A stretch of DNA of 64,000 nucleotides. It comes from Bacteroidota bacterium (lineage in GTDB: Bacteria > Bacteroidota > Ignavibacteria > OLB7). The notes below the pieces were generated by a model. That model was not told the DNA's origin and did not search any database. It worked only from the letters and a program-made list of their open reading frames with translations. Positions 5,348-13,035 of the stretch are shown piece by piece; the stretch's first letter is position 1, and each line of letters opens with the position of its first letter. A program made the position numbers and the translations under genes. The stretch covers positions 1 through 64,000 of the forward strand of contig JAFDZV010000035.1 in the NCBI GenBank assembly GCA_018266795.1. The letters are read 5' to 3'.

Positions 5348-6277
5348 ATGATCACGTGCGTGCGCACCGGTATCCGTTCGCTTCTGTTCCTGTTGCTCCT
5401 GGTGTGCGGCAGCTCACTTCACGCGCAGGAGAAGAAGCATGACAGCCTGGAGCTTCGTTATCGTTTCGTGCCGGGGCAGACGCTCACCTACCGTGTGTTC
5501 GGGTACGACACGATCGTGATCTACGATTCCACCGTGCACGCCCTGTCGCGCGAGCGCGAGGAGATGGTGACGTATCGCTGCGACTCGATCGTGCCGCAAG
5601 GGTACGTGATGACGCTGCGAACCACGGCGTACAAGGCAACGGAGCGGCGCGATACGGCGACGCCGGTGGTAGTGACCTCGCATCCCTGGGTGGGGCGCAG
5701 CATACGTTTCCTCATGAGCCCTACCGGCCGTCGGCTGGATCTTCTGGCAAGTCCCAACGTTCCCGCGACCGGTCCCGGGGGGCCATTCGCTCCCATGGTC
5801 CTTCCGAATCTCGGTGCGGACTCCACCTACATCGGGAGTTCAGATCAATACGTCAACGAGCAGTGGACCGTGGATGCGCTCTATCCGCCGATCAGGTGGC
5901 GGGGCAACTGCATGCGGAACGTCGAGCGGCGGTTCGATACGCTCGGCAATCCGGTGGTGGAGGTATCGTTCTCGGAGGTTGGGAACAACGCCTATCGCCA
6001 GCCCGGCAAGGGCGATCCCACCACGAGCTCCCTGAGCAACGGAGGCGGCAGCTATTACTGCTCAGCTCGGTATGCGTACCCGATCGCCGGCAACTACGAG
6101 ATGATCAACAACCTCACGATGGACTTCCCCGCTCCCGCTGCACGCAAGCTCCGCGGGCGACATACCACCGGCATACTGATTCAATTCATCTCCGACAGCG
6201 AGCACCCGGGGTTCAAGCCGGAGGAGAGGCCGCAGCGATCGTCGAAACATGGTGGCAGGAGCCGGAAGAAGCACTGA
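5348..6277 (+). CDS. Secreted protein of unknown function
   Basis: 309 aa. The ATG at 5348 begins a signal peptide ending in SSLHAQ; an in-frame ATG at 5234 would put 38 unlikely residues before it. The mature region is soluble, with a strand-rich pattern similar in style to the 4395 product (LRYRFVPGQTLTYRV near the N-terminus, FLMSPTGRRLDLL in the middle). The C-terminus is strongly basic (KHGGRSRKKH). It lies 38 bp before the Xaa-Pro peptidase gene on the same strand. I do not recognise the family. Confidence 0.7.
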   Translation: MITCVRTGIRSLLFLLLLVCGSSLHAQEKKHDSLELRYRFVPGQTLTYRVFGYDTIVIYDSTVHALSREREEMVTYRCDSIVPQGYVMTLRTTAYKATERRDTATPVVVTSHPWVGRSIRFLMSPTGRRLDLLASPNVPATGPGGPFAPMVLPNLGADSTYIGSSDQYVNEQWTVDALYPPIRWRGNCMRNVERRFDTLGNPVVEVSFSEVGNNAYRQPGKGDPTTSSLSNGGGSYYCSARYAYPIAGNYEMINNLTMDFPAPAARKLRGRHTTGILIQFISDSEHPGFKPEERPQRSSKHGGRSRKKH

Positions 6278-8743: not shown

Positions 8744-9184
8744 TCAGGGGATCATCCAGACTCTGCGGGCCTTGAGCCGATGCTGCAGCAGATTTGAAAT
8801 CGCCTTCAGACTATACTCCACTCCAAACCGGTCGCGCAGCCAACGCTGAATCTCGTTCAACGTGCCGACATGCTCCGATTTCAGTTTGCAGCGCAGTTCT
8901 TCCAGCTCGCTGCGATTGATCCTCATCCGTCCCGGGTCGGCATTCTCATCATGGATGAGAGCATCCAGTCCGTGTTGAGTATACTCCTTCAACCATCGGT
9001 GCACGCTTCGTTCCGAGCATCCGATCATGGCGCTCACTTCCGACAGGGGGAGAGAGGGCGCCTCCTTCAATATCCGGAGCATCTTCAAACGATTCGTCTG
9101 CTGCTGCTGACCGGTATACTGCCGTTCCAGAGCTGCGAGGGTCCGCAGGCTCTCCTCAATTCGACCGTTCCGTTTTCGTGGCAT
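8744..9184 (-). CDS. Stand-alone IS630-type helix-turn-helix protein
   Basis: 146 aa. After a short helical lead-in (RLKMLRILKEAPSLP) comes a first HTH (SEVSAMIGCSERSVHRWLKE). A second winged-helix segment of the IS630/Tc1 transposase type follows (TLNEIQRWLRDRFGVEYSLK). The protein stops at KARRVWMIP, just where the DDE catalytic domain of a transposase would begin, so it can bind DNA at most. It aligns along its whole length with the N-terminal third of the 10553-11788 product. It could be a domesticated regulator or a transposase relic. The intact frame and defined stop favour the former. Confidence 0.75.
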   Translation of the reverse strand: MPRKRNGRIEESLRTLAALERQYTGQQQQTNRLKMLRILKEAPSLPLSEVSAMIGCSERSVHRWLKEYTQHGLDALIHDENADPGRMRINRSELEELRCKLKSEHVGTLNEIQRWLRDRFGVEYSLKAISNLLQHRLKARRVWMIP

Positions 9185-9241: not shown

Positions 9242-9397
9242 TCAGCAGCCAATGATAACCATGCTGCCGTCAACAAGGAAGCGCAGCATCCTGATACGCA
9301 CATCCTGGGTTTCGCCGCGGTACCGCTGGTCCATCGATTGAATCGTCTCGATGTTTTCTTCGGCCTGAATCTGTTCGGCGTTCTTCGTGCGTTGCAT
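9242..9397 (-). CDS. 51-aa mini-homologue of the HTH regulators' N-terminus
   Basis: The frame begins MQRTKNAEQIQAEENIE and continues QRYRGETQDVRIRMLRF before ending VIIGC-stop. It matches the first 40 residues of the two neighbouring regulators (HYRGESQEPRIKVLRLL in the 10553 gene, QYTGQQQQTNRLKMLRIL in the 8744 gene). The HTH itself is missing. A strong Shine-Dalgarno (AGGAG at 9406-9410, 8 bp before the ATG) suggests it is translated. It may be a truncated relic, or a small partner that interacts with the larger regulators through the shared N-terminal segment; the latter is inference. Confidence 0.55.
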   Translation of the reverse strand: MQRTKNAEQIQAEENIETIQSMDQRYRGETQDVRIRMLRFLVDGSMVIIGC

Positions 9398-9768: not shown

Positions 9769-10392
9769 TCAGTAGATCTGGTAGGCCGAGCCGGAGTAAT
9801 CGTCCGCAGTGGGCTCGTAACCGGAGATCTGCGGGCCGATATGCTGGCCGGGGCTCAGGGGCTGAACAACTGCAACGCCCGTGGAGTTGAGCGAGACCGA
9901 GTACGGCCACACGCTGAAGTCGCCCTGATAGCACGGGTGGAACAGCGTTGTGAGGCCGGAGTTGCAGCGGAGCACGTTCGGATCGGCGACAACGCTGACG
10001 TTCAGGCTGCCCGTGCTGGGAGCCGGAGTATATCCGAGCAGCACACCCTGATTGATTGCTGCGTCGGCAAGCCATGCGTAGATCGTCTTGGTTGTTGCAG
10101 CGTCGATAAGCGTTCCGTTCTCGCCGTTGAAGCGGATCGAGTCGCTCATGATCTGATAGCTGACCGAACCGGTGGAGGTACGGAACGAACCGACCACGGT
10201 GATGACCGTATGTGTCGGCCGCTGATTCTTTGCCAGGATCGGAGTGCCCGTGCCATCGTTGATAAAGCCAACCTGTACCGGGAAGGTGCCGATCAACGTC
10301 GCAGACGGATCCGGCAGGTAAACCCGGTTCTGGGCAGAGACAATGGTGTTGAGTGTCGCAAGGAGGAAGAGGGATACAACTACGTTCTTCAT
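9769..10392 (-). CDS. Secreted protein of unknown function within the HTH island
   Basis: 207 aa. The ATG at 10392 starts a signal peptide (MKNVVVSLFLLATLNTIVSAQ). The mature protein is soluble, rich in Ser/Thr/Val and strand-forming, with three cysteines (LRCNSGL, HPCYQGD region). No known domain is recognised. GAAATTTG at 10475-10482 (minus strand), with ATTG 21 bp further upstream, is a candidate promoter. It lies between the LuxR-fused regulator and the mini-homologue, all on the minus strand. Control by those regulators is a reasonable guess but not shown. Confidence 0.65.
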   Translation of the reverse strand: MKNVVVSLFLLATLNTIVSAQNRVYLPDPSATLIGTFPVQVGFINDGTGTPILAKNQRPTHTVITVVGSFRTSTGSVSYQIMSDSIRFNGENGTLIDAATTKTIYAWLADAAINQGVLLGYTPAPSTGSLNVSVVADPNVLRCNSGLTTLFHPCYQGDFSVWPYSVSLNSTGVAVVQPLSPGQHIGPQISGYEPTADDYSGSAYQIY

Positions 10393-10474
10393 GAGTGATT
10401 CAGCCTGAAGGGATTGAGGGATTGACCTGAGAAGGGGAATAACCATGCAGCAGAACGCATGATCACGACCGCCA

Positions 10475-10482
10475 CAAATTTC
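10475..10482 (-). promoter_or_regulatory. Candidate -7 element (GAAATTTG) for the 9769 gene
   Basis: Read on the minus strand, GAAATTTG differs at one position from TAnnTTTG. ATTG lies 21 bp upstream (10504-10507), fitting the -33/-7 spacing. It would give a leader of about 75 nt. Confidence 0.35.
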
Positions 10483-10552
10483 GCCTGTCCGGTGTACAGT
10501 GGACAATTGCACTTTTGTGGAAATCTTCAGACGTAGCACGCGCAGGCCGTGC

Positions 10553-11788
10553 TTACGAATTATGGAGGTTGAGACGAGGTGTGAAGTACTTCGCGAAGAG
10601 TTCCGTGTAGCTGCGCGTTCCGGTCTTGCGATGCACCGATCCGAGGTGTTTCTTGATGGCGTCTTCGGAGATGCTGAGCTGATCGGCGATCTCCTTGTAG
10701 GAGAGTCCGAGAAGCCGAAGCATCACGACACGACGTTCCTGAGTGGAGAGTCCGGCCTCCTGCGTCATGTTCTTCAACGCGTCATGGAACATCCGGTCAA
10801 CCGGGTGCGCATAATGGTAGCGGGCGATGAGGTCGGAGAGCATGTAAATGATGAAAGGCTCCATCAATGCCACCGTATTCCTCGATCGTTCAGAAGTGAT
10901 GGGCTTTGTACGGTCGCGCCAGAGAAAGATCGTTCCCAAATACGCGTGATCGTTGTAGTAATAATCGAAGCTGACAGGCGGATGGAATTGATCGACGGGA
11001 AGTCCCTGACTGCGAAAATTATCGAGCAGTCGATCGGACGGGCGTTCACCTTGGTGGTACGACGTGACGGACACGCCTTCAACGCCGGACGTTGCGTCCA
11101 CCGTGATCATCATGTCCGGTTGATATTCATCGGGATCCTGCAGGGCGCAGTTGATGTTCACATATATCGAGACGCGATCCACCTCACCGATCAATTCCAG
11201 CAGCGCCTCGCGATACCGGTCGACAGCGCGTTGCGTGTCGTTTGTCAGCGGCAGACGGTTCAAAAAGTGAAGTATGTTGTCAGGAATAACCGCCTTCTCC
11301 GCCGCGGCAGATACGGCCTTTCCCTCGGCCACACGTATCTCTCCGCCATCTGAAACAAGCCACATGCGGCGTGCCTTCAGCTTGCGCTGCAACAGATTGG
11401 CAACACCTTTCAAACTGTAGCGGAGTCCGAACCGTTGCTCCAACCAGGTTTGCACATCATTCAGGGTAGTAAGCTCCCCAGTGTGCAGTTTGTTGCGCAA
11501 CTCGTCGATCTCATGGCGACCAAGCGTGCTTGCCCTGCTGCCGGCGCGCGTGCGATTGCTGAGCAACCCTTCGATACCGTCGCTCTGATATGCTGCCCAC
11601 CAACGATTGGCACTGCGCTCCGAACTTCCCGCGAGCGATGCTGCCTGTTCGAGAGTGCGCGTAGGATTCTCCTTCAGAAGTCGCAGCACCTTGATGCGCG
11701 GCTCCTGTGATTCTCCCCTGTAATGTTGCTCGAGGTTGAGCAGGAATTCCAGGCTCTCGTGAATATGTGCTGTCCGTTGCCGAGCCAT
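10553..11788 (-). CDS. Regulator fusing an IS630-type HTH to a LuxR-type HTH
   Basis: 411 aa in three parts. Residues 1 to about 135 match the IS630/Tc1 transposase DNA-binding region (EQAASLAGSSERSANRWW, then TLNDVQTWLEQRFGLRYS). Residues about 150 to 335 are a soluble region with no recognised motif, perhaps a sensor. The C-terminal 65 residues are a GerE/LuxR HTH (LSTQERRVVMLRLLGLSYKE, IADQLSISEDAIKKHL). The DDE transposase domain is absent, so the mobile-element DNA-binding domain appears recruited into a regulator with two different DNA-binding ends. The ATG at 11788 is chosen because its MARQR start aligns with MPRKR in the 8744 paralogue; a TTG at 11824 is possible. Confidence 0.8.
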   Translation of the reverse strand: MARQRTAHIHESLEFLLNLEQHYRGESQEPRIKVLRLLKENPTRTLEQAASLAGSSERSANRWWAAYQSDGIEGLLSNRTRAGSRASTLGRHEIDELRNKLHTGELTTLNDVQTWLEQRFGLRYSLKGVANLLQRKLKARRMWLVSDGGEIRVAEGKAVSAAAEKAVIPDNILHFLNRLPLTNDTQRAVDRYREALLELIGEVDRVSIYVNINCALQDPDEYQPDMMITVDATSGVEGVSVTSYHQGERPSDRLLDNFRSQGLPVDQFHPPVSFDYYYNDHAYLGTIFLWRDRTKPITSERSRNTVALMEPFIIYMLSDLIARYHYAHPVDRMFHDALKNMTQEAGLSTQERRVVMLRLLGLSYKEIADQLSISEDAIKKHLGSVHRKTGTRSYTELFAKYFTPRLNLHNS

Positions 11789-13035
11789 TGGCCGGAATCG
11801 TTCGGTACCGTGATCAACCCACAATTAACACGCGTCAACGTTTGCGCATGCAAAATCGCTCTACACGGTTAGTTATGGGTAGACGAAAGGATAGAAGTAG
11901 AATTGAACCGGCCGCATGTTGCCACTGTCGGCGGGCGATGAAGTTCTTGCCCGACGTGACTCTCGATTGATTGCCTGGACAATGTGTATCTGCCGGAGGG
12001 GCGAAATCGCGGCACTCAACAGTTGGGGACAGGCGTTGAATGTCTACGAAATCGTTTGGCGCGGGATGCGCAGAAGCAAGTGCACGTGCGCTCGAGTGCG
12101 ATAGGTCCGTACTGCGGAAGTCGTAGGAAGCAGGAAGTCGGAATCTAGAAGATTCGAGCGCGGCGAAGATACAATTGTGTCCGGTCGTCAACAAGATATG
12201 CGGCCCGAAAAAATGGTAAGTCCATCCACTTTCTGTAGCTATGCGAAACAATGGGACGTGTGCGGTAAACAACGGGGCTCGAAGATACGAAACGAATGGG
12301 CCATACTTCATTGCTCCGAAAGCGATCTTCGGAGTGCGCTCGTTCGTTCATCCTGGCCTTCAGAGCAACATCCTTCTGATAACCGGCCGAAGCGGCGAAT
12401 CTGGGCTGGACCGGTATTCATTTGCCCCGCGTGAGAGCGGATTTGAAGGACCTCGTCGTTCGCCGCACATGTTCCTGTGTTGGATGCGGCGTGCATCGCA
12501 GCCGACTCGAAACCATTGTGGGGCGCGCTCGCGGTAACGGCATCGAGAATCGCATCCACAAGATTTCAACTTTCCGCAGGAGTCGCAAGCGATTCCGATG
12601 CAGGGATCGGACCTTGGAACGGAATCGCCTGTGCCATGGAACCGGCCCGCACCCCGTCCGATCGCATTCGCGCTAAACGTCGGGGGTGCTTCGCTCCGCA
12701 TGGGTCAATGTACGTCATCCATGTCATCGGGCAAATATATACAATAGTACGCGGTGAATCTTCATACATCATACAGTAAGTCGATCGCTCAACGCTCGTC
12801 CGCGGTATCGGCACGGTGCCTGTGTTCCGTTCGGCCTGCCGCGCGAACGTCTACCGCGAATGCCTCCCGCGAACGGCGATCGGCCGCCCATTGTGCCCGC
12901 ACACTCTCGTGCGGCATGGCGGCGTTCCCGGCAGCTCGGTGCCCGCAGGCAATTCCGAACGGCAATCGTATTTGCGGTTGGCCCGAAGAGCGGCGGTGTA
13001 GCCGAGGCTACGCAGGATCATCCGGAGGCTCGATC
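11789..13035. other. 1.25-kb gene-free region
   Basis: No convincing gene on either strand: short open frames show no family features and no consistent codon use. Three minus-strand promoter-like octamers occur: TATCTTCG (12164-12171, with CTTG 20 bp upstream), TATCTTCG (12280-12287) and TATATTTG (12732-12739). They could drive a long leader of the 10553 gene or an untranslated RNA. The region is less GC-rich than its surroundings. Confidence 0.5.
12732..12739 (-). promoter_or_regulatory. Orphan -7 element (TATATTTG)
   Basis: A perfect TAnnTTTG on the minus strand in an AT-rich patch. The next minus-strand start codon is 940 bp downstream, so its transcript is unknown. Confidence 0.3.

Follow-up and report, generated by a model that had tools for sequence, protein, structure and literature searches.

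What does a protein do that begins with the DNA-binding domain of a transposase and ends with that of a LuxR-type regulator? The question is raised by a gene in the window, the whole stretch of 64,000 nucleotides analysed here. The comparisons described below suggest that its product, P0001, is a true regulator of the LuxR type, restricted to one bacterial family, which has captured a transposase HTH and is paired with an operator and target of its own.

The regulator gene and its domains

The gene and the three parts of its product are placed as follows.

10553–11788, minus strand: P0001 regulator gene, 411 aa, with an IS630-type paired HTH, a middle domain and a GerE/LuxR HTH; conserved in relatives
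11369–11698, minus strand: IS630-type HTH pair, residues 31–140 (HTH_28/29, then HTH_32/33), from Pfam, NCBIfam and a tree
10784–11302, minus strand: middle domain, residues 163–335, without a Pfam match and weakly GAF/LuxR-ligand-like in a low-confidence model
10598–10753, minus strand: GerE/LuxR HTH, residues 346–397, from Pfam

The P0001 reading frame extends on the minus strand from an ATG at 11788 to a stop codon at 10553–10555. An alternative TTG start, 36 nt upstream, would give a protein of 423 aa, but the ATG is preferred because homologues start at its M-x-R motif. P0001 has a counterpart with 60% identity over its full length in another genome of its genus, and the conservation indicates that P0001 is a genuine gene and not a chance ORF.

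The original prediction had described a transposon HTH pair, a middle region and a GerE domain, in that order, and both Pfam and NCBIfam bear this out. HTH_28, HTH_29 and HTH_33 exceed their gathering scores over residues 31–135, as do GerE and Sigma70_r4_2 over residues 346–397. The GerE match (PF00196) reaches 36.0 bits against a cut-off of 23.5, which places P0001 in the GerE/LuxR HTH superfamily, and the same model is above its cut-off in 10 scanned homologues. When the PDB was searched by sequence with P0001, the 19 matches all fell inside residues 311–399 and were mostly GerE relatives. The recognition helix of the GerE domain, which we place by analogy, presumably lies around K379-K380-H381. 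The NCBIfam IS630 transposase model NF033545 matches residues 31–140 with an E-value of 3e-14, under its whole-protein cut-off. The catalytic DDE part, which had been described as gone, is indeed absent, as the NCBIfam match stops at residue 140 and GerE comes after the middle domain. Moreover, the domain search did not match the N-terminus to any known LuxR partner domain.

Origin of the N-terminal HTH

Two further copies of the HTH lie close to the regulator gene.

8744–9184, minus strand: P0002, 146 aa, a lone IS630-type HTH (Pfam, tree)
9242–9397, minus strand: remnant, 51 codons long, of another copy of the N-terminal HTH (tblastn match and translation)

The proposed kinship of the P0001 N-terminus with IS630 is upheld by Pfam, by NCBIfam, by its relatives outside the family and by a tree of the HTH. 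In this tree of 25 rows, which leaves out L121 and L128–L133 of the 16 matches from the phylum, a single branch, with support 99/97, unites the 11 fusions with P0002 and separates them from 13 IS630-type rows. The closest outside relatives include the OrfA protein of two-ORF IS630 elements, examples being plasmid-borne copies from Rhodothermus marinus and Pseudanabaena galeata, in each of which an annotated transposase ORF follows. An HTH of the P0001 type is present in 17 of 395 phylum genomes, and GerE is absent from all 16 of the outside matches, one of which runs into masked letters. A search with two query proteins located a DDE ORF at five of these 16 matches; the same search found none at the family loci L116 and L118, and no OrfB match was found near P0001 or P0002 in the stretches L001 and L010.

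The captured domain sits in a non-mobile host gene, as seen from the single clade and from neighbours held in common with G001, the genome of the same genus. IS630 elements are bounded by terminal inverted repeats with duplication of a TA target. That P0001 is itself a mobile element seems unlikely, as no clear terminal repeats were seen in 10300–12100; the repeat search in this region gave four partial repeats, and the sole pair that spans the gene has arms of 13 nt.

In a tree built from the middle domain and GerE the fusions do not form one clade, and five changes are needed to account for them. A single clade is nevertheless not rejected (p-AU 0.27), which makes one capture of the IS630 HTH, with later losses or exchanges, likely.

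P0002 lies about 1.4 kb from P0001 and nests in the fusion clade beside P0001 and its G001 orthologue (82/73). From this place in the tree, P0002 is probably a product of the fused family and not itself an ancestral transposase. Together with the remnant at 9242–9397 it appears to be what remains of local partial duplications, perhaps acting as a competitor of the regulator.

Distribution of the family

The architecture was surveyed in 41 genomes, in which G001 is of the same genus and G002, G003 and G004 are of the same family. The survey revealed a multicopy fusion family, with four fusions in the genome of the window (G000; 5.97 Mb, 71 contigs), three in G001, three in G004 and one in G003. 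The last of these is split over two contig ends, its halves having an overlapping stretch in common; a further G003 contig end bears the N-terminal 27 residues of another fusion, which is left out of the count. No fusion was found in G002, nor in 36 genomes of other families in the same class. P0001 does have matches in 17 of these 36, all inside residues 314–409, corresponding to GerE and the region just before it. Among the genomes searched, the fusion family thus appears to be confined to one bacterial family.

The genome of the window holds 13 matches to P0001, four of which span both ends (C28, C70 and two on C25). The others are the lone HTH of P0002, contig-edge pieces on C15 and C30, a GerE-only match on C8, and five proteins that have the middle domain and GerE without the IS630 HTH. 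The middle–GerE scaffold therefore occurs with and without the captured domain, and the HTH is optional. Searched for alone, with at most eight candidates scored per genome, the middle domain was found in one of the 395 phylum genomes, that of the window; among the genomes listed for this search, the family is represented by G000 and G002 only. A plasmid search returned 12 records, none of which covers both ends of P0001, and viral contigs gave a single weak match to residues 81–172. Two scans of genome_contigs yielded no member of the family: one returned nothing, the other 12 matches confined to GerE or its vicinity. The C15 paralogue (L048 54–1028) has lost its N-terminus at the contig end and has an HTH_3 (XRE) domain behind GerE (E 6e-9).

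The middle domain

No Pfam model matches residues of about 150–335 of P0001 above its cut-off, and a convincing match for the middle domain was found in none of the 21 family members scanned. The autoinducer-binding domain (Autoind_bind) was detected neither in P0001 (E up to 1) nor in 21 middle domains (E up to 5). The receiver, PAS and GAF models of Pfam were likewise unmatched by the P0001 sequence, and the GAF model had no match in the 21 family members. A sequence relationship to GAF was also sought by hhalign against 30 GAF_2 domains, where the score of 12.1 compares with values of up to 15.8 for column shuffles and so lends GAF no support; the distant LuxR paralogue L050, used as a bridge, gave nothing firm.

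Single-sequence structure models have a mean pLDDT of 51 for the whole protein and 50 for the middle domain, in which a helix, strands, a helix, two strands and a long helix follow one another. Foldseek gave no match to the middle-domain model at E ≤ 0.001, and designed and ribosomal proteins are among its highest-ranking rows. With VIA-align the same model of pLDDT 50 placed PDE GAF domains on top, with Z up to 6.0, together with the ligand domains of CepR2, QscR, LasR, SdiA and RhlR, with Z up to 5.1, although a Z below 8 may reflect merely a common arrangement. The structure prediction that had been suggested as a check on this region has delivered a weakly GAF/LuxR-ligand-like arrangement in a low-confidence model. 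At low confidence, the middle domain is probably an alpha/beta/alpha sensor of the GAF or LuxR ligand-binding type.

The linked secreted-protein gene

An all-against-all comparison of the flanks of the regulator genes identified a family of small secreted proteins encoded directly downstream and on the same strand. In the window its member is the following.

9769–10392, minus strand: secreted-protein gene encoding 207 aa with a signal peptide (MKNVVV...AQ, judged by eye), the proposed target, of a family found at 15 regulator loci

A secreted gene directly follows all 11 fusions, including the one that lies in two contig-end halves, and is also found after three HTH-less paralogues and the C15 paralogue; six HTH-less paralogues have no secreted gene directly downstream. 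The family has 16 copies in four of the five family genomes, which are precisely those that hold regulators, and all but one of the 16 stand beside a regulator, the remaining copy lying where its contig ends. Its members have a signal peptide, as judged by eye, and most have a cysteine-rich C-terminus. No convincing Pfam match was found among 15 members.

At seven loci a third secreted gene follows (L043 9671–10165, L048 2159–2683, L053 10932–11468, L058 8174–8674, L059 4813–5325, L061 1565–2119 and L115 5104–5613). Its product is small and secreted, shows by eye a motif resembling DGGxTWR, and in most cases has a T9SS type A sorting domain; in a scan of six of these proteins, those of all loci except L061, this domain is above the cut-off in five and below it in that of L059. 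T9SS sorting domains are a pointer to the Bacteroidota and their relatives. At L044 (6468–8898, G000 C44) two HTH-less family regulators stand in tandem and are followed by one secreted gene.

An operator-like site ahead of the secreted gene

A site of roughly 20 bp is common to the 15 intergenic regions that lead from a regulator to a secreted gene. In the window it is accompanied by a candidate promoter element.

10504–10523, minus strand: proposed operator built on the core CACAAAAGTGCAATTG, with a -33-like TTG at its end; the shared intergenic site
10475–10482, minus strand: proposed -7 element GAAATTTG, compared with the Bacteroides consensus TAnnTTTG; its TTTG starts 25 nt past the operator

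At L048 and L055 the site reads ACTACACAAAAGTGTAGTTG and contains a perfect inverted repeat, and that of the window, TTTCCACAAAAGTGCAATTG, has a degenerate left arm. A TTTG stands 24–25 nt after the best match to the L048/L055 string at 10 of the 15 loci, as compared with a mean of 0.12 and a maximum of 1 in 300 shuffles. With the two source loci set aside, the summed site matches of the other 13 come to 172, whereas shuffles reach no more than 149. Since the inverted repeats of single regions are mostly inside the shuffle range, it is the recurrence of one site at a fixed distance from the TTTG that speaks for an operator.

The agreement is not uniform. TATTG is found at about the place of the TTTG in L059 and L061, and a shortened or changed TTTG in L048 and L055. 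L043a can be fitted by eye with a spacing of 25 nt. Judged on letters alone, L043a, L043b, L058 and L060 come no closer to the operator consensus than shuffled sequences, and L053 has a p of 0.12; for these five the fit is one of spacing or by eye only. Two instances of the pattern AAAAGTGNANTTGN{22,27}TTTG were found in the 6-Mb genome of the window, both at modules, and three in G001; four of these five are at modules, and G002–G004 gave none. The same pattern appears seven times in the 36 genomes of other families, and so the third G001 site (C35:64000), which is between ORFs showing no module link, may be due to chance. Autoregulation was considered and rejected, as the spacing test found an operator upstream of none of 13 regulators. 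In the L054 intergenic region (5397–5892, minus strand) an operator variant, GTACACAAA(G/C)ATGTACTG, is present twice: the first copy comes immediately after the regulator, the second ahead of the secreted gene.

The regulator at L055 has no HTH, and yet its operator, a perfect palindrome, has the same core as those of four fusions (the window, L051, L042 and L052). This would make GerE the simplest reader of the site, and it is likely to be the domain that binds the proposed operator. Position 379 is Lys at all eight loci with an AAAAG operator and Arg at all seven without (operator types assigned by eye), a pairing that is not independent evidence because it involves only two changes on the tree.

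The available text on Bacteroides promoters gives a consensus of TAnnTTTG at -7 and TTTG near -33, and states that in Flavobacterium no -33 motif was found (PMC7366714). The lux box is described, in the accessible parts of two further papers, as a 20-bp inverted repeat centred at -42.5 (PMC3376562, PMC7585371). The centre of the operator proposed here is about 36 nt ahead of the TTTG and would therefore be near -42 to -44 if the TTTG starts near -7. Such spacing would match that of the lux box in class II LuxR promoters.

How the regulator may act

The account that we consider fairly probable is that P0001 is a LuxR-type one-component activator of the adjacent secreted gene, with GerE on the operator and the captured HTH as a second grip. 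A GerE dimer would bind the inverted-repeat operator of roughly 20 bp that overlaps the -33 element, and P0001 so bound would help RNA polymerase at the TAnnTTTG-like -7 element, activating rather than repressing the gene. The middle domain may sense a signal. The HTH pair would have been captured, probably once, from the OrfA part of an IS630 transposase by an ancestor of the regulator family, and may now hold a DNA target of its own, strengthening or redirecting the binding of the protein.

The position of the operator over a -33-like TTG is as well suited to occlusion as to class II activation, and P0001 might thus be a repressor that shuts the secreted gene from the -33 element until a signal releases it. 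This is unlikely, as the centre of the repeat is where LuxR-type activators sit according to the accessible parts of the literature (PMC3376562, PMC7585371), and several -7 elements, GAAATTTG of the window included, deviate from TAnnTTTG in a manner suited to an activator-dependent promoter. A different role is suggested by the presence of two unrelated DNA-binding folds at opposite ends of P0001, namely that the protein bridges or loops DNA with the IS630-type HTH on one site and GerE on another, which would be compatible with activation or repression. The stand-alone HTH paralogue P0002, 1.4 kb away, would then be a free competitor, and L042 has a longer inverted repeat between its -33 and -7 elements. 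Shuffles, however, yield an equally good repeat in 13 of 100 cases, no conserved second site for the transposase HTH was found, and the second half of the HTH pair is mostly lost in three fusions, all of which makes bridging distinctly improbable.

The erosion of the second half in these three members would suit a captured HTH that has given up DNA binding and become a module for protein contact or dimerisation, and so would the presence of HTH-less paralogues next to the same kind of target. Against this, S56, R62, W63, Y67 and G71 in the first HTH of the pair are invariant in all 12 rows and the Pfam HTH models match above their cut-offs, so that we regard a change to protein contact as quite unlikely. 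A broader scheme would see here a bacterial equivalent of the capture of transposases in eukaryotes, in which the fusion of one IS630 DNA-binding domain to a LuxR scaffold gave rise, within one bacterial family, to a radiation of cassettes of regulator, private operator and secreted protein, with both protein ends simultaneously holding different DNA sites and paralogues kept apart by diverging operators; it is tentative and, as a whole, doubtful.

Comparison with known systems

P0001 resembles the LuxR one-component regulators in its C-terminal GerE, in the domain of about 170 residues before GerE that is probably alpha/beta/alpha, and in a proposed inverted-repeat operator of roughly 20 bp over the -33/-35 region. 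By anatomy it would be like a LuxR class II activator. It differs from these regulators in the extra transposase HTH at its front, in a promoter of the Bacteroides -33/-7 type and in having no autoinducer-binding, receiver, PAS or GAF match by sequence, and by sequence it does not belong to the AHL receptors. The lack of a receiver-domain match also distinguishes it from the NarL/FixJ response regulators. With the OrfA of two-ORF IS630 transposases P0001 has in common the paired HTH over residues 31–140, and P0002 is of comparable length to OrfA. Unlike these transposases, P0001 has no DDE domain, no OrfB match nearby and neighbours in common with a sister genome.

Transposase capture in animals is a documented source of new regulatory proteins. 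The P0001 family is similar to the eukaryotic host–transposase fusions in that a DNA-binding domain of the IS630-Tc1-mariner group has been placed on a host protein and gene-family expansion has followed, but it is bacterial and built on a LuxR scaffold. Nematode F-box genes have captured a Tc1/mariner HTH for which protein contact or dimerisation is proposed, and a section heading of the paper, in the part available, states that this HTH is not involved in transcriptional regulation (PMC12062965); this calls for caution with the P0001 family. In the accessible parts of the open literature on bacterial transposase capture and transposase-derived regulators, no bacterial family of transposase-HTH/LuxR fusions was found.

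The HTH-less paralogues would allow the effect of the captured domain to be measured directly by domain removal, and the paired operators make it testable how a set of related regulators avoids cross-talk within a single cell. Two unnamed families, that of the middle domain and that of the secreted protein, were found only with the module in the genomes searched. Other LuxR-type proteins are encoded beside two of the fusion modules: MalT-like regulators at L042 (3137–5800) and L052 (7874–10600) adjoin those of C70 and of C28 in G001, respectively. The L042 protein consists of TPR_MalT and GerE, and that of L052 groups with it by BLAST.
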